Shown one piece after another: positions 3,588 to 12,705 of a stretch of 27,625 nt of DNA. A program made the position numbers and the translations under genes. Numbering within the stretch: the stretch's first letter is position 1; each line of letters begins with the position of its first letter. The stretch is from a virus, in the IMG/VR virus record IMGVR_UViG_3300012944_000051, positions 1 to 27,625 of that record. One strand, 5' to 3'. The notes beneath the pieces are model-generated. The model was not told the DNA's origin and did no database searches. It saw nothing but the letters and a program-made list of their open reading frames with translations.

Positions 3588-4139
3588 TTACTGCTGAGCC
3601 ACAGTCACGCGGCTGTTCGTGATATAGACGGGACCGCCGTTGGTCGTGATGCGTGTCGGCTTTGCGACGGTGGCGATGGGCCTTACAGGCGCTCGCGGGC
3701 CTGCATAGACCGGCGCCTCTGTGCGGGCGATACGATGGACGCCGAGATCGAGCGCTCCGGGATTGAAAGCCGCCGCAATGGCCGCATACCACGGGCTTGA
3801 ATGCGCAACGTTATCGGCCGTCTGAAGACGGATAGTCGGCGTGTTTGTCGAACCGCCGTCATAGACGCCCTGATGGTCGTGGGAGTTGGTGACCTCGTCG
3901 AAGCTCTGGACCGGCGGGAAGGCTTGCCGATGGCGGATCGTCACCAGATGTTGCTTCTCGGCACTGTCACACCACTGCGAATGCGTGGCGTAATAGTCCT
4001 TGTCGAGATCGCAGCGGGCGGTGTCTTTGGCGTAGACGGCGGCATGGTGACGATAATGTCGGTGCGCGGCATCGGCGCCTCCGATGATGGCAATTACCAA
4101 AGTGGCAATCGTTCCAAAATAAACAGCCTTGCTGTCCAT
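3588..4139 (-). CDS. Exported or membrane-anchored hypothetical protein
   Basis: I place the start at ATG 4139, with AGGAGA upstream, giving 183 aa; an upstream in-frame ATG at 4253 lacks support and overlaps the preceding gene. Residues 1-25 (MDSKAVYFGTIATLVIAIIG, then GADA) form a signal peptide or anchor. The mature part is His/Tyr-rich at first (HRHYRHHAAVYAKD), has two Cys (C40, C53 region), then an Ala/Pro/Thr-rich C-terminal half ending VTVAQQ. It should act at or outside the inner membrane. No family recognised; possibilities include superinfection exclusion or envelope modification. Confidence 0.6.
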   Translation of the reverse strand: MDSKAVYFGTIATLVIAIIGGADAAHRHYRHHAAVYAKDTARCDLDKDYYATHSQWCDSAEKQHLVTIRHRQAFPPVQSFDEVTNSHDHQGVYDGGSTNTPTIRLQTADNVAHSSPWYAAIAAAFNPGALDLGVHRIARTEAPVYAGPRAPVRPIATVAKPTRITTNGGPVYITNSRVTVAQQ

Positions 4140-7032: not shown

Positions 7033-7199
7033 CTAGGCGCTCTCTCCTCAATCTGCTGACTGGCGGCTTCATTGTTGCGCAGTACCCGCCGCCGATCCGG
7101 TGGCCGCCGCGTCCGCCTCGGCCGCCGCCACGACCTCAGCCGCCGCCATCGCCCCCACCGCCGCCACGTCCGAATCCACCGCGGGATTACTACAGATGA
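7029..7199 (+). CDS. Small proline-rich protein with N-terminal hydrophobic segment (56 aa)
   Basis: ATG 7029 overlaps the previous stop (ATGA) and its own stop overlaps the next start (ATGA at 7196). The product begins MTRRSLLNLLTGGFIVAQYP, a short basic-then-hydrophobic segment like a weak signal peptide or anchor. About 35 residues follow in which Pro alternates with Arg, ending DYYR. Coupling on both sides supports translation. It could be a membrane- or partner-binding peptide; function unknown. Confidence 0.6.
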   Translation: MTRRSLLNLLTGGFIVAQYPPPIRWPPRPPRPPPRPQPPPSPPPPPRPNPPRDYYR

Positions 7200-7486
7200 G
7201 CGAGCCACATAACGAAGCCGCTAAAGCGGTCCTCTGGTGCTGCCATGTCCGCGGCCCCGACGATGTCCATGCGGCACCCGATTATGAAACTGCGCTCAAA
7301 TGGGCGGATATGACCAATGCAATCAACTGGCGCGGGATCGGCGGCAAAATCGACCCTCCCGCCTCTTACGACGATTGCCTACTCAAGGCGGTACCGGCGC
7401 CATGGCCATGGTCTGCGGAAGCCCACGCGGAAAATATGCCGAAAAGTATCAACGACTTTGCGATTCCGGGGGCGGCCGAGAAGTGA
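7196..7486 (+). CDS. Hypothetical protein (96 aa)
   Basis: Start chosen at ATG 7196 because of the ATGA overlap; an upstream in-frame ATG lies inside the proline-rich gene. The product begins MSEPHNEAAKAVLWCCHVRG and is Trp- and Cys-containing (PWPWSAEAHAE), soluble and mildly acidic. Its stop overlaps the GTG start of the next gene. Phage proteins with a similar VRGPDDVHAAPDYETALKWA core occur widely, but I know of no assigned function. Confidence 0.7.
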   Translation: MSEPHNEAAKAVLWCCHVRGPDDVHAAPDYETALKWADMTNAINWRGIGGKIDPPASYDDCLLKAVPAPWPWSAEAHAENMPKSINDFAIPGAAEK

Positions 7487-7698
7487 CCGATCCCTTCGCC
7501 TACTTCCCCCGTGAAAGGGACGGAGGTCTTCGTGACCGCGGCCCTATCAAGCGCCTCCCGGTTCATAAGATATGGGACGCGCTCGCGATGGGATGGGTAC
7601 CCATCCCGCCCCGTTGGGTTGGTCCATACGAACTCGAAGTGATCTGGTGCCTTTGGATCGAATGCGCCTGCGGGCGGAAGATGCCGGTGCCGAGATGA
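7483..7698 (+). CDS. Small hypothetical protein with GTG start (71 aa)
   Basis: GTG 7483 overlaps the previous stop as GTGA and its stop overlaps the methyltransferase start as ATGA (7695). The product starts MTDPFAYFPRERDGGLRDRG, contains a Trp/Pro-rich core (WDALAMGWVPIPPRW) and ends CLWIECACGRKMPVPR, with a Cys-x-Cys near the C-terminus. The position immediately upstream of the methyltransferase suggests a shared process, but no family is recognised. Confidence 0.65.
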   Translation: MTDPFAYFPRERDGGLRDRGPIKRLPVHKIWDALAMGWVPIPPRWVGPYELEVIWCLWIECACGRKMPVPR

Positions 7699-8408
7699 AG
7701 AAGCGCAAACCTCTTCCCAACGGCGCCCGCGCCATCATGGGAAGCCGGAAGGAATCGAAGCGATCGCGCGAATTCTTTCCTACACCACCTTGGGCTACGC
7801 GAGCGCTCTTTGAGTATCCTTTGCGTCATCTGAAAGCTTACAGAGGAAAAACGCTCATCGCGAATGCTTTCGAGCCCGCTTGCGGTGAGGGTCATATCGC
7901 TGGAGTGCTGGAGGAATATTTCGATAACGTCACTGCAAGCGACGTTATCGATTACGGTTATCCGTCTCAATTTGTGGTGGATTTTCTGAAAGGTCGGCCG
8001 GCCGGTCCGCCTCCAGATTGGATCATCACCAATCCGCCTTTTGCGCAAGCCATTGAATTTACGCTTCGCGCGTTGGAGTTAGCCCGGCGCGGCATCGCGA
8101 TGTTCGTGCGCGTGCAATTTCTCGAAACTATCGGCCGTTACGAACGGCTGTTCCGCGATAAACCACCGACGCTGATCGCCTTTTTTACTGAACGCGTCCC
8201 TATCCAGAAAGGCCGCTGGAAGCCACAAGGATCAACCGCTACCGCCTATTGCTGGTTGATATGGGAGAAAATCTCATATGGCCTCATCCATCCACCATAT
8301 GCGCCATTCTGGATACCGCCCGGCTGCAAAGCGGCATTCACCAAACCAGATGATCGCGCGCGCTTTGCGGCTTGGTCTCTGCCGAAAGCATTGGAGGCCG
8401 CAGAATGA
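7695..8408 (+). CDS. Orphan adenine-specific DNA methyltransferase
   Basis: The start is ATG 7695 in an ATGA overlap, giving 237 aa; the upstream extension of the frame belongs to the previous gene. REFFPTPPWATRAL (26-39) is the typical N-terminus of phage Dam-like enzymes. FEPACGEGH (59-67) is the SAM-binding motif I, and WIITNPPF (109-116) is the catalytic motif IV of N6-adenine methyltransferases. No restriction endonuclease is adjacent, so it is an orphan, probably protecting phage DNA or altering promoter recognition. Motif I precedes NPPF, unlike the CcrM (beta-class) order. It lies four genes upstream of the GcrA homologue in one coupled operon. Confidence 0.9.
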   Translation: MKKRKPLPNGARAIMGSRKESKRSREFFPTPPWATRALFEYPLRHLKAYRGKTLIANAFEPACGEGHIAGVLEEYFDNVTASDVIDYGYPSQFVVDFLKGRPAGPPPDWIITNPPFAQAIEFTLRALELARRGIAMFVRVQFLETIGRYERLFRDKPPTLIAFFTERVPIQKGRWKPQGSTATAYCWLIWEKISYGLIHPPYAPFWIPPGCKAAFTKPDDRARFAAWSLPKALEAAE

Positions 8409-8539: not shown

Positions 8540-8715
8540 AAATGAACGGCCACGCTGTCGAGATATGGCAGACTCCAATTGCGCCCATCCACGCCATGTA
8601 TTGTCCCTGCTGCCCATGGGGAATCATGCGCATTACGTCTGACTTGACCAGTATCAAATGCCCGAGATGCGGGACGATCCTGCCGACCGGCTACGAAAGG
8701 CAGGAGGCCGCATGA
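8536..8715 (+). CDS. Zinc-ribbon protein (59 aa)
   Basis: ATG 8536 has GGAGAGG 5-6 bp upstream. The product contains YCPCCPWGIM around residue 22 and KCPRCGTIL around residue 42, two CxxC knuckles separated by about 20 residues: a classic zinc ribbon. It may bind nucleic acid or a protein partner. It ends in an ATGA overlap with the GcrA homologue. Confidence 0.75.
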   Translation: MKMNGHAVEIWQTPIAPIHAMYCPCCPWGIMRITSDLTSIKCPRCGTILPTGYERQEAA

Positions 8716-9251
8716 ATTCGTGGCCTCTGGAACGCGAAGAGTTGCTGAGAAAGCTTTGGGCTGATCGCCTCACCGTGCTGCAAATAAGTCAGCGCTTTGG
8801 CTGCACGAAGAATTCCATCCATGGAAAACTCACTCGATTGGGGTTAATCGCGAAAAAGGAAATGCCCACCAAAAGGGAAGCGCCGCTACCGCGAGCGAAG
8901 TTCAATCCATCCTTTAAGAAGCCTGGCGGCGTGCCGGGGCGTCGACCCGATACTGTGTTCGGGCAACCCAACACGATCAAGGCATGGAAGCCGCCGTCTC
9001 TTACTCCTGAGCAAAAGAGAATCGTCCTTGATGGCGAGCGAAGCACGGGCGTTCCGTTGAACGACTCCGTCATGGAGATCGTAGGGCATGGCAAACAAGC
9101 CACCCTCCGATGGAGCGGAGGACTTCAGCCGGGCCAATGCAAATGGGTCATCAACGCTCAAGAACGCGGAGGGGAATATCTCTTCTGCGGAGAGAAAGCC
9201 TTGAGCGGCTGCGTCTATTGCGGAGAGCATGAGCGAAGGGCATGTGCATGA
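8712..9251 (+). CDS. gcrA-like: GcrA-family transcriptional regulator homologue
   Basis: The start is ATG 8712 (ATGA overlap), 179 aa. Residues 3-46 (SWPLEREELLRKLWADRLTV ... CTKNSIHGKLTRLGL) match the GcrA DNA-binding helix-turn-helix, whose family form is W-x-x-E-R-x-E-L-L-K-x-L-W...GKxxRLGL. The C-terminus has the family's Cys/His cluster: QCKW, YLFCGEKALSGCVYCGEHERR. In Caulobacter, GcrA binds RNA polymerase sigma-70 and acts at CcrM-methylated GANTC promoters. A phage copy in the same operon as a methyltransferase suggests redirection of this circuit. Basic Pro/Lys linker at 50-100. Phased GANTC clusters occur later in this window. Confidence 0.85.
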   Translation: MNSWPLEREELLRKLWADRLTVLQISQRFGCTKNSIHGKLTRLGLIAKKEMPTKREAPLPRAKFNPSFKKPGGVPGRRPDTVFGQPNTIKAWKPPSLTPEQKRIVLDGERSTGVPLNDSVMEIVGHGKQATLRWSGGLQPGQCKWVINAQERGGEYLFCGEKALSGCVYCGEHERRACA

Positions 9252-9430: not shown

Positions 9431-9540
9431 GCGGCGCGCTGCGCCTTCTCGCATCGCGTCTTTCGGCAACACGAGGCGTCGCCACGCACCGCACCGCGCC
9501 GCGTCGCGACTCGGCGCTTCGCTTCTCAACGTAACGCAAC
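9431..9540 (+). repeat. GCNNC pentamer array 1
   Basis: This spacer reads as 22 consecutive 5-bp units in strict phase; 15 of 22 fit GCNNC exactly (GCGTC, GCCAC, GCACC, GCAAC and others), and most of the rest differ at one fixed base. It ends 16 bp before the start of the 195-aa gene. The two middle bases vary freely, so it is a degenerate periodic array rather than a copied satellite. Confidence 0.85.
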
Positions 9541-9556
9541 CAGGAAAAGGACCTAC

Positions 9557-10144
9557 ATGAAAACAGTTGTTGCCCATCTCAAAAGCATTTCGCCTTATTC
9601 GCAGAGCAAACATTATGTCGTGGAAAAGCTCCAAGGCGAATCGCCCGACGATCATTATCGCCGCACATGGCGTAATCACATGCATTCCGATAAGGAAGGC
9701 ATGACGTTCATCCCGCCCGGCGCTTTCAAGAACTGCCTCTCGGAGGCTGCTAAATTCATGTCAATCAGTATCCCCGGTAAGGGAAAAGCGACCTATACTA
9801 AGAATTTCGAAGCCGGTGTCCTCGCCCTGAAACCCATGATGCTTGGAATTCATCGCGATCAGGTCGAATGCGAATCGCTGTTTCTGCCCTCCGACGGGCG
9901 CCGCGGCGGCCCCAAACGCGTCGACAAGTACTATCCGTTTTTCCCTGAGTGGGAAGGTCCTGTCGAATTCCATGTCGTGGATGAGACAGTATTGCAGACC
10001 ATGGCTTCGGATAAGAACAAAACGATCTTTGAGCATGTCCTTGAAGGTGGCGGCCAGTTTATCGGTATCGGTCGCTTTCGTCCTCGGATGAATGGTTGGT
10101 ATGGCCGATACAAGATCAAAGACTTCGCGATCATGGAGGCTTGA
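9557..10144 (+). CDS. Unrecognised phage protein (195 aa) with Gly/Arg C-terminal motif, flanked by pentamer arrays
   Basis: ATG 9557 has AAAAGGA upstream. N-terminal MKTVVAHLKSISPYSQSKHY is followed by FIPPGAFKNCLSEAAKFMSI (about 56-75), a central stretch with CESLFLPSDGRRGGPKRVDK, and a C-terminus EGGGQFIGIGRFRPRMNGWY-GRYKI. I recall phage proteins ending in G-x-G-x-x-R-P-x-x-x-G-x-[YF]-G-R-[FY] of similar length but no assigned function. The glycine-rich loop is loosely like RAMP/Cas7-type RNA-binding folds; that is speculation needing structure prediction. It lies between two GCNNC arrays with no coding overlap, unlike all earlier genes. Confidence 0.8.
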   Translation: MKTVVAHLKSISPYSQSKHYVVEKLQGESPDDHYRRTWRNHMHSDKEGMTFIPPGAFKNCLSEAAKFMSISIPGKGKATYTKNFEAGVLALKPMMLGIHRDQVECESLFLPSDGRRGGPKRVDKYYPFFPEWEGPVEFHVVDETVLQTMASDKNKTIFEHVLEGGGQFIGIGRFRPRMNGWYGRYKIKDFAIMEA

Positions 10145-10322
10145 TGTGACTATCGCGACGCGGCATTACGCGATGCCCCGCTTTGTGCCACGACGCGTCG
10201 CCTTGCAACGCAACGTCCTCCATTGGATTCATTCTGTGGCGCTTCGCCCGGCCCCGCGGCGTAGTGCAATGCCGCGCAACACACCGCACTGTATCGCTAC
10301 GCATCGTCTACCAAGCTCGAAG

Positions 10323-10340
10323 CGATCCAAAGGGATCGTT
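10323..10340 (+). other. Short hairpin followed by TTT inside pentamer array 2
   Basis: CGATCC (10323-10328), loop AAAG, GGATCG (10333-10338), then TTTC. It sits in the main non-periodic insert of the array, next to a second small inverted repeat (GGTTG...CCAACC, 10345-10360). It could be a weak terminator or processing site for the 195-aa gene's transcript. Confidence 0.4.
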
Positions 10341-10471
10341 TCAGGGTTGGGTGACCAACCGTCACGTCACGCGTTGCGATTTAATGCAACACGGCGCATT
10401 GCGGCGCAACGTTACACTGCGCTGCGCATTTCACTGCTGCGCTTCGCTGCGCTATACCGCGCTGCGCATCT

Positions 10472-10500
10472 CAACGCCACGGTTCATTTGGCACTTTTAC
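10472..10500 (+). repeat. A/T-rich 29-bp repeat within array, copy 1
   Basis: CAACGCCACGGTTCATTTGG followed by CACTTTTAC. It recurs at 10625-10654 with two substitutions and one inserted T. It is less GC-rich than the surrounding array but still begins with two in-phase pentamers (CAACGCCAC). Confidence 0.8.
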
Positions 10501-10624
10501 AGCGCGCTACATCACGTGTCGCGCGGCGTCGCGACGCATCGCTGCTCGCAACGTACTTACCGCACCCCGCTGCGCATCACGCCACAACACCGCGCTCGGC
10601 GGCGCAAGGCTCCGCACCATATCG

Positions 10625-10654
10625 CAACGCCACGGTTTATTTAGCACTTTTTAC
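10625..10654 (+). repeat. A/T-rich 30-bp repeat within array, copy 2
   Basis: CAACGCCACGGTTTATTTAG followed by CACTTTTTAC, 153 bp from copy 1. The retained core CACGGTT-ATTT-GCACTTTT-AC may be a protein-binding or promoter element lying upstream of the 170-aa gene. Confidence 0.8.
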
Positions 10655-10737
10655 CTCGCGCCTCAGCGCACTGCGTTACGGCTTGGCGCTTCGCCTCGCG
10701 ACGTAACGCTCCGCAACGTCCCTAAAAGGATAACCCT

Positions 10738-11250
10738 ATGTTGAAACCGCCAGACTTCAAACAATCCCGCGAAACTCAGATCATCTATGAACTGTTCCGC
10801 GAGCTGCCGAACCGTGATGATCCGCTTATCACGCACCGCGAGCTTTGCGAAGCAACCAACAAGCGCATCGAAGATATTCGCGGCGCAATTGCCACAGCAA
10901 AGAACCGCGCGCTCAACAGCGACGGCCTCGTGATCGATAACGATCGCAGCATCGGCTACCGGCTACGCAAGGGCGACCAAATCACAAAGATTGCCGAGAG
11001 GGGCTCCGAGAAAGCCCGCAAGATCGTCCGCACCAGCAAAAAGAAGATCGGCTGTGTCGACCGCACGAAGCTGACGGTCGAAGAGACTGCGCGATATTTC
11101 GTCGTTAAGACCGTGCTTGAGTTGCAGGAACTGCCTTCCCGGCCGCGCACCAAAGGCAATGTCCAACAGATGATCCTGCGCAAGCACAACGAACTGGACG
11201 AACAGGAAATGCTCGAAGCCATCAAAGAGGCTTTGATCAAGAAGAAGTAA
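10738..11250 (+). CDS. Basic winged-helix-like phage protein (170 aa)
   Basis: ATG 10738 follows AAAAGGATAA. Residues 29-75 (PLITHRELCEATNKRIEDIR ... NDRSIGYRLRKGDQI) look like a winged helix: two helices followed by a beta wing ending GYRL. The middle is strongly basic (KARKIVRTSKKKIGCVDRTK) and the C-terminus helical, ending EALIKKK. Similar small wHTH proteins accompany phage recombination/replication genes. It is flanked by arrays 2 and 3 and is a candidate reader of the pentamer motif, by position only. Confidence 0.75.
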   Translation: MLKPPDFKQSRETQIIYELFRELPNRDDPLITHRELCEATNKRIEDIRGAIATAKNRALNSDGLVIDNDRSIGYRLRKGDQITKIAERGSEKARKIVRTSKKKIGCVDRTKLTVEETARYFVVKTVLELQELPSRPRTKGNVQQMILRKHNELDEQEMLEAIKEALIKKK

Positions 11251-11251
11251 C

Positions 11252-11316
11252 GCCCCGCTTGGCGTCACAACGCCGCGTGTTGCAACTCCGCTCCGCGCCT
11301 CACACCGCAACGCCAG
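11252..11316 (+). repeat. GCNNC pentamer array 3
   Basis: Thirteen consecutive 5-bp units (GCCCC GCTTG GCGTC ACAAC ... ACACC GCAAC GCCAG) fill the gap between the 170-aa gene and the replication gene, ending 12 bp before its start. Same period and strand orientation as arrays 1 and 2. Confidence 0.8.
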
Positions 11317-11328
11317 TAGAACAAGAAA

Positions 11329-12144
11329 ATGAGCGTCGAAGCCCTCACCTGGGTATTTGCCCAGGACATCCCTAGCCGCGCGAAGACGGTCCTCTTGGCT
11401 ATGGCCAACCATGCGGACCCGATTACGGGTCATTGCTATTTGAAGATATCGACGCTCATGCAAAAGTCGTCATGCTCTCGCCGGTCGACATTCAGCTTCA
11501 TCGGCCTTCTGCGGCATAACGGCTTCATTGATCAGCGCCAGGTCATCAAGGACGACGGCACCAAAGCCAGCGATTATTGGCTGCTTTACGATCGCGTCGC
11601 ATCCAAATGGATTAGCCAGCCGGGAAAAGAGAATCCGGACGAAATAGAAGAATATTCCCCGGATGAGGTAATTGAGGATGACCACGAGGGTATCAGTGCA
11701 AGCAGCGCACCCCCCCTGGACCCTGTGGAAAATGCACCTCCCGAACGTGCCGTTGCACCCCCTCAAACAGATTCTCGCACCCCCATATATGATCCGTCTG
11801 ATTCTAACCGGAGTCCTGAGTTAATTGAAGGGCCAGCATTCAAAGCCCAAGCGCCGCAGGAATTTTCTTCCAAGGCAAAGGCGGCCGAGCTGGCAAGGCT
11901 CAAAGCTGCCGAAGAAGCAAGAAAACCGAAGCGCGTTCCAGTCATCGAGGGCTGCGAAGCGTGGAAGGCCCATGTCCGAAACGGACATCCGCCGACCCTG
12001 ACGACGAACATCGAATTCAACGGTAAACGCTACCGTGGTTGGTATTTCCCGTCATATTTCCCATTGCCCAAATCCACCGGCCCCCCCGATTCTGACCTCA
12101 TGAGCCCAGAAGACCGCGAAGAATTGGCAAAAAAATGGGGTTAA
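11329..12144 (+). CDS. Helix-turn-helix replication-initiator-like protein
   Basis: The 271-aa product opens with ALTWVFAQDIPSRAKTVLLA, then MANHADPITGHCYLKISTLM and SRRSTFSFIGLLRHNGFI. This is the N-terminal winged-helix of a common phage/plasmid replication protein type (lambda O-like in role). Residues about 110-165 are a Pro/acidic flexible linker and 175-205 an Ala/Lys helix (SSKAKAAELARLKAAEEARK). The C-terminal part ends PEDREELAKKWG. The typical partner, a helicase loader, is not seen. A weak AAGAAA site precedes ATG 11329. Probable role: replication initiation. Confidence 0.7.
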   Translation: MSVEALTWVFAQDIPSRAKTVLLAMANHADPITGHCYLKISTLMQKSSCSRRSTFSFIGLLRHNGFIDQRQVIKDDGTKASDYWLLYDRVASKWISQPGKENPDEIEEYSPDEVIEDDHEGISASSAPPLDPVENAPPERAVAPPQTDSRTPIYDPSDSNRSPELIEGPAFKAQAPQEFSSKAKAAELARLKAAEEARKPKRVPVIEGCEAWKAHVRNGHPPTLTTNIEFNGKRYRGWYFPSYFPLPKSTGPPDSDLMSPEDREELAKKWG

Positions 12145-12147
12145 GAC

Positions 12148-12705
12148 ATGGTCGAGCGCTGGCACATTGCGATGATGGAACCCTACGCGACAGGGCTCAG
12201 CGAGCGAGACGACGGCTGGGACGCGAACGCTTGCCGCATTTTACGAAAGCGTGGCTATGAGGTTTATTATCCAGCCATCCCCAAAAAGACGCACACGACG
12301 CATCGGGTCATGCGCACCATCATGCGCCCGATGTTTCCGGGTTATCTGTTCGTCAACGAATCGGCCATTGGGTGGGATTGGCTGCGCACTACGCCGGGAA
12401 TTCGAACCTATGGCAGCCTGTTGATAGATTCGGCCACGGCCAGGCTTGCGGTGCTGCCGCCGGGGGAGATCGACCGCATTGCGGAGGCCGAAAGGCGGTT
12501 GATTCATCAAATACTTAATCCGCCTCCGCGCGAGCTGCCCTATGAGGTAGGCGAGACCGTACGTGTGACTGGTGGCGCCTTCGCCGGCTTTTATGCAAAT
12601 ATCGAGACCCTTGACGACGAAGAAAGAATAGCGTTACTTATGGACATCTTCGGACGCCAGACTCGCATTTTTGCATCTCACGAGCATCTTGCAGCCATCG
12701 GTTAG
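12148..12705 (+). CDS. NusG/RfaH-like transcription antiterminator
   Basis: The 185-aa product shows the NGN domain: ERWHIAMMEPYA at 3-14, ACRILRKRGYEVYYPAI at 28-44, and the hallmark MFPGYLFV at 62-69. A KOW domain follows: YEVGETVRVTGGAFAGFYAN (132-151). NusG-family factors bind RNA polymerase and promote elongation. A phage-borne paralogue just before two terminators and the late genes suggests it helps polymerase reach the structural operon. It starts 3 bp after the replication gene. Confidence 0.85.
   Translation: MVERWHIAMMEPYATGLSERDDGWDANACRILRKRGYEVYYPAIPKKTHTTHRVMRTIMRPMFPGYLFVNESAIGWDWLRTTPGIRTYGSLLIDSATARLAVLPPGEIDRIAEAERRLIHQILNPPPRELPYEVGETVRVTGGAFAGFYANIETLDDEERIALLMDIFGRQTRIFASHEHLAAIG

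Follow-up and report, generated by a model that had tools for sequence, protein, structure and literature searches.

VIPR (Viral Interference Programmable Repeat), a newly described system related to CRISPR, reads DNA in steps of two letters (PMC13142463). As the main text of that preprint describes it, a VIPR is made up of a phage RAMP protein (Vipr), an accessory protein (Vap) and vrRNAs of YNNGG units, the NN pairs of which recognize DNA with a 1-nt skip (PMC13142463). The vrRNA tract is given there as GGY "or a related consensus" plus the hypervariable NN, typically in 9-16 units, with an invariable structured 3′ tail (PMC13142463). Seven VIPR types are published. For two systems, that of the Escherichia phage SUSP1, which is of type II, and that of a P. 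fulva prophage, the preprint reports that the RNAs are expressed, that RNPs form, that the skip rule applies and that repression occurs (PMC13142463).

Here we consider a stretch of 27,625 nt of viral DNA (IMG/VR record IMGVR_UViG_3300012944_000051), which we call the window. Positions 9431-11313 are very probably the VIPR locus of a tailed phage, with a RAMP-fold Vipr, a winged-helix Vap and about seven predicted guide RNAs, working as proposed. Each vrRNA would be a run of 5-nt units, [XXY][NN], in which the fixed triplet (CGC in the window) would be gripped by the Vipr filament, and the NN of successive units would pair with DNA with a 1-nt skip, so that the skipped base can coincide with the wobble position of a codon. 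The presumed role of the complex is to silence genes carried by rival phages or by other mobile elements. We infer by analogy with the published VIPRs that the CGC-coded RNAs of the window are expressed and act in the same manner.

By its protein, its accessory gene and the form of its arrays, the locus in the window is a VIPR member with CGC as its triplet instead of GGY, and it presumably functions alike. It shares with the SUSP1 and P. fulva systems a Vipr homologue (E = 1.9e-12), a minimal phage-borne locus of vipr and a vap of the DNA-binding type (predicted for the window Vap), and coding-strand arrays of pentamers, hypervariable at NN, that occupy the flanking gaps. It differs in its triplet (CGC, whereas GGY is published), in its terminal units (XXYAA) and tails, and in having arrays also between vipr and vap. 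As far as compared, the Vap of the window and the published Vap are functional analogues only. In sum, an unannotated, predicted RNA-guided system has been identified in an environmental phage.

Periodic arrays of the window

The original prediction described arrays of 5-bp units in three non-coding gaps, and the autocorrelation against shuffled controls that it proposed bears this out. Lag-5 identity is 0.57, 0.44 and 0.48 in the gaps 9431-9540, 10155-10722 and 11252-11316, respectively, against 0.293 ± 0.041, 0.270 ± 0.019 and 0.305 ± 0.054 in shuffled controls of the same bases (maxima among 2000 shuffles: 0.448, 0.343 and 0.483), the third gap giving the weakest signal. A scan of the whole 27.6-kb window, in which lags 5, 10 and 15 were compared with other lags, flagged only 9431-9570, 10141-10735 and 11246-11320. 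Raised lag-15 identity (~0.5) is also seen within a coding region at 7076-7200, which holds no VIPR array. On the + (coding) strand the unit is [CGC][NN], with three informative and two uninformative columns. The spacer considered exceptional is indeed a gap of 593 bp (10145-10737).

The claims of strict phase and fixed bases stand in part. HMM segmentation gives about seven arrays, each of about 12-25 units, that are parted by short non-periodic stretches, and register slips occur in array 5 (Table 1); phase is thus held inside arrays and lost over the whole gap. The triplet pattern is present, but the triplet is kept at only 73-83% of the fixed positions.

Arrays 2, 3, 6 and 7 have 12-13 units, inside the typical VIPR tract length of 9-16, and arrays 1, 4 and 5 are longer (~22-25 units), perhaps merged. 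The final units of most arrays have AA as NN. A tail, CGGTTYATTTRGCACTTTTTA, is present in two near-identical copies of 20-21 nt, which resemble the CGTTTCTTTTGGCAATTTA tails of two related loci (L073 and L074); the remaining arrays of the window end without such a tail. The candidate tail of array 3 contains two putative hairpins picked out by eye, CGATCC-AAA-GGGATCG and GGTTGG-GTGA-CCAACC, and tails of similar appearance are present in L010 and L042. The window has no more sigma-70 promoters or terminators than shuffled controls.

The locus is minimal, two genes plus arrays, in a record that also carries phage head genes. A DNA methyltransferase and a GcrA-like regulator are encoded beside it (7572-8408 and 8658-9251), hinting at an alphaproteobacterial host. 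A NusG-like protein with a KOW motif (phrog antiterminator) is encoded downstream of the replication gene (12148-12705).

Table 1. Features of the locus and its borders in the window
Feature	Position	Strand	Remarks
Array 1 (predicted vrRNA)	9431..9540	+	~22 CGC-NN units; upstream of vipr; 3′ end CTCaa CGTaa CGCaa
vipr	9557..10144	+	195-aa RAMP/Cas7-like Vipr; phrog_4652
Array 2	10154..10215	+	~12 units; NN: ga gg ta ga cc tt gc ga gt ct aa aa; HMM segmentation
Non-periodic stretch	10216-10239		HMM segmentation
Array 3	10240..10306	+	~13 units; HMM segmentation
Candidate non-periodic 3′ tail of array 3	10307..10359	+	HMM segmentation; pairing by inspection
Array 4	10360..10479	+	~24 units; may be more than one vrRNA; HMM segmentation
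Repeated tail, non-periodic	10480..10499	+	CGGTTCATTTGGCACTTTTA; repeat search and HMM segmentation
Array 5	10500..10632	+	register slips near 10546-10556; one or two vrRNAs; HMM segmentation
Second tail copy, non-periodic	10633..10653	+	CGGTTTATTTAGCACTTTTTA; repeat search and HMM segmentation
Array 6	10654..10718	+	13 units; extends into the ribosome-binding region of vap; HMM segmentation
vap	10738..11250	+	170-aa accessory; predicted winged-helix N-terminus and helical C-terminus
Array 7	11251..11313	+	12.6 units; NN: cc tt gt aa cg gt aa cg cg ct ac aa; HMM segmentation
Replication-initiation-like gene	11329-12144		directly downstream of array 7

Proteins encoded beside the arrays

From the fixed spacing, a reader with a 5-nt footprint had been expected, and the flanked 195-aa gene probably encodes it, as the Vipr family binds such RNAs (PMC13142463). 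When the profile of the 195-aa family was compared with solved structures, the sole significant match was 36pp, "SUSP1 Vipr protein" (E = 1.9e-12); the profile also recovers the vipr gene of SUSP1. Over its whole length, the AF2-modelled fold of the window protein (pLDDT 96) resembles those of Csm3 (Z 12.0) and of the Cas7 of type VII (Foldseek E 2.5e-7); the Foldseek PDB set ends in April 2026, and 36pp is not among its entries. Judged by profile and model, the protein is a RAMP/Cas7-fold Vipr. The RRM/RAMP fold along the full chain is thus common to it and to the class 1 CRISPR RAMPs, but the periodicity is 5-nt as opposed to 6-nt, identity is ~8-16%, and the RAMP of the window is single and small. 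A repeat search of the locus found degenerate pentamer families only; a CRISPR-like array, in which unique spacers separate long and nearly identical direct repeats, was not found. Each of the 59 Vipr homologues hits phrog_4652, which is listed without a known function; this PHROG seems to correspond to the Vipr family and would thereby gain a function. Neither Vipr nor Vap had a protein match in the collections of phages and of plasmids.

A homologue of vap is present in 50 of the 63 non-redundant loci. The model of the 170-aa protein (pLDDT 95) has a winged helix as its N-terminal half; its fold matches in the PDB are weak (best E 0.05), and in some Vap members there is a weak match to the domain by which alkylguanine transferases bind DNA. 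As a predicted winged-helix accessory, the protein agrees with the vap class that the preprint describes as DNA-binding. Of the suggestion that the flanked proteins bind the arrays, the part concerning Vipr would hold by family, and the 170-aa protein would be an accessory instead. An annealing, replication or RNA-protection role, also suggested, is wrong or unsupported: by homology the arrays would be guide RNAs whose NN specify DNA targets.

Arrays and variable pairs in related phages

A first search with the 195-aa protein found seven relatives in IMG/VR, all with pentamer arrays adjoining the gene, and a profile search extended these to 74 viral loci and one Rhodospirillales MAG. In a search of the viral loci that the original prediction had called for, lag-5 arrays lie within ~1 kb of vipr in 63 of 63 non-redundant loci, at a locus GC of 30% to 71%; gene-keeping relatives devoid of arrays were not found among them. 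As a positive control, the scan of SUSP1 recovered four GGY/NN arrays, one upstream and three downstream of vipr, matching the preprint. The same scan found no arrays in unrelated viral contigs (439,745 bases), and across 722 kb of phage contigs arrays are almost confined to the vicinity of vipr. A DNA search in phages with whole arrays gave no match. An orphan CGC-NN-like array is located ~9 kb from vipr (L100:14581-14710, on the contig of L022), and an array of opposite orientation, CGC-NN on the minus strand, lies upstream of vipr at L005:4484-4569. A distant Vipr-like match (L086 of G034, E 2.6e-11) occurs in another genome in the order of L084.

That fixed spacing with variable content speaks against a simple satellite has been borne out, as NN is near-random and the arrays are tied to the vipr family. 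Satellite or VNTR DNA has a short tandem unit in common with the window arrays, in which two of the five positions are random, three are fixed, and association is with one gene family. A degenerate satellite, low-complexity drift or slippage in GC-rich gaps would agree with the finding that the GC content of the triplet tracks that of the locus (rho 0.73). It is already contradicted, and practically untenable, given a lag-5 excess well over shuffles, the same architecture from 30% to 71% GC, two near-random columns next to three fixed ones, and the absence of arrays from unrelated contigs and from the remainder of the window.

In 233 arrays from 50 loci the commonest lengths are 10-16 units. 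The entropy of NN is near 3.9 of 4 bits, except in the last two units, which are XXY-AA in 50% of the 233 arrays. Tails between arrays are near-identical within one phage (L033, L076 and L074). In L076, by eye, ten CTC arrays each have a terminal hairpin, followed by a stretch that contains CATAAT and may be a promoter. Rfam gave no ribozyme or other family at the gathering score, and six further loci yielded no pertinent hit with E as high as 1; none of the loci tested thus showed a hammerhead-interspersed array.

The variable pairs turn over between close relatives. L056 and L059 are 99.8% identical in vipr and 98% in vap, and share one array; in three of four arrays NN are unrelated while the triplets and downstream tails are kept. 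The same type of replacement is seen in one of three arrays between L064 and L065. Such replacement between near-identical phages is as predicted for replaceable guides. NN were also tried as codon positions 1-2; the antisense 1-2 frame fitted best, but differences were small and the null unclear, and the result was not used.

These findings bear on whether the arrays could be operator or iteron sites on DNA for Vipr or Vap, serving autoregulation or an origin beside the replication-initiation-like gene. Vap is a predicted DNA-binding protein, the arrays occupy promoter-like gaps, and one directly precedes the replication gene. However, hypervariability at two bases, with entropy close to the maximum, is not required of operators, nor do operators account for wholesale NN replacement between near-identical phages, for the coding-strand placement and polarized AA end of the arrays, or for the 22/22 match to a vipr gene described below. 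We consider such sites highly improbable.

Fixed triplet and candidate targets

Phase was inferred without a prior motif at every scorable locus, and every one has three informative and two uninformative columns, the third base being always C or T. Nine triplets are found: CGC, GGC, GAC, CAC, CTC, GTT, GTC, AGT and ATT. Within the same Vipr family the window has CGC, and L017, L029, L071 and others have GGC/NN. The fixed part of the guide differs among phages and hence is not universal. Triplets cluster on the Vipr tree, with 24 changes (unassigned rows taken as one group) versus 35.2 when shuffled (0/200 as low). Among assigned rows there are at least 21 changes, a rough count since much of the tree backbone is unresolved.

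All 28 Viprs with a purine-first triplet have V or I at residue 110, and V occurs there in only 1 of the 27 with a C-first triplet. A test of correlated evolution gave an LRT of 29.4 on 4 df (~0.003 after multiplying by all 446 traits); only 28 of the 446 traits per position were fitted, and ranks past the first few carry little meaning. SUSP1, which lies outside this set, has a GGY triplet and I at the aligned residue. R173 is present in 34 of 34 Viprs with G as the second base (LRT 21.9), and S15 behaves likewise (LRT 20.1). Both associations fail correction over the 446 traits, and SUSP1 (GGY) has D at 173; residues 173 and 15 are leads only as candidate partners of the second base. The triplet diversity and the link to residue 110 go beyond the main text of the preprint, and some of the diversity may already be known.

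Targets were searched for with arrays masked. The first 11 NN of the L005 array (CG CC AG AA AA GG TA TA GG AG TT) match the vipr of L026 at 22/22, with a 1-nt skip and in codon frame, over the peptide RPRNNGYYGRF; permuted guides (804 per skip rule, vipr set) scored 14 at most. The vipr of L005 itself encodes the same peptide, with the codons AGG, CGG and CGA against CG, AG and AG in the guide, a mismatch at all three arginines. AGR makes up 9% of arginine codons in the L005 contig. In this one case the codon choice reads as putative self-avoidance, and it suggests how wobble-skipping guides may discriminate self from rival. The L005 phage has 64% GC and that of L026 35%, so L026 may be a mere look-alike of the true target. 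No other vrRNA of the set has a strong target, and apart from this match a skip of 1 was not enriched over other skips in this small target set.

Alternatively, the arrays might act in cis on the transcript, coated by Vipr but guiding nothing, as a leader or in antitermination or RNA protection. Their position in transcribed gaps, with AA-rich ends ahead of ribosome-binding sites, and the nearby NusG-like gene (12148-12705) would suit such a role. It predicts neither NN turnover nor the L076 array copies with their own hairpin tails, neither the reverse-strand array of L005 nor in-frame matches to rival genes, and the SUSP1 vrRNAs are described as acting in trans (PMC13142463). Action in cis is thus very unlikely, and we prefer the view that the arrays encode guides.

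We also propose, tentatively and at somewhat less than an even chance, that the triplet is an evolvable second code. It would have switched repeatedly (at least nine XXY and at least 21 switches), partly via residue 110 for the first base and perhaps residues 15 and 173 for the second, with the final pyrimidine kept. The vrRNA sets would thus be orthogonal between phages, and guides would be used against a rival vipr at a conserved peptide site, self being spared by use of the other arginine codon family. If Viprs read different triplets, several VIPRs could coexist without crosstalk, and triplet choice becomes testable at one residue.

The window's own guides gave no convincing natural target in the IMG/VR or genome searches. 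In IMG/VR, which was scanned for exact matches, the array 2 guide (9-unit seed) had none, that of array 6 had 12, mostly at unrelated sites, and that of array 1 had 13, and none of these extends. The array 7 guide in 76 genomes and the L005 guides in 385 genomes gave none.

A GAC-NN guide of L042 (array at 3878) matches L036 around 2281-2313 at 20/22, in frame with a 1-nt skip, in a gene that resembles a phage RecA/Sak4-like ATPase; the score is barely over the permuted maxima. As a lead only, because one conserved site counts once, an 8-unit seed of array 7 (11251-11313) matches 22 places in IMG/VR, most of them in one IS1-type transposase family. The transposase matches lie antisense, and the base skipped is the wobble base; the best match reaches 21/22 (e.g., L144:7313-8233, minus strand).
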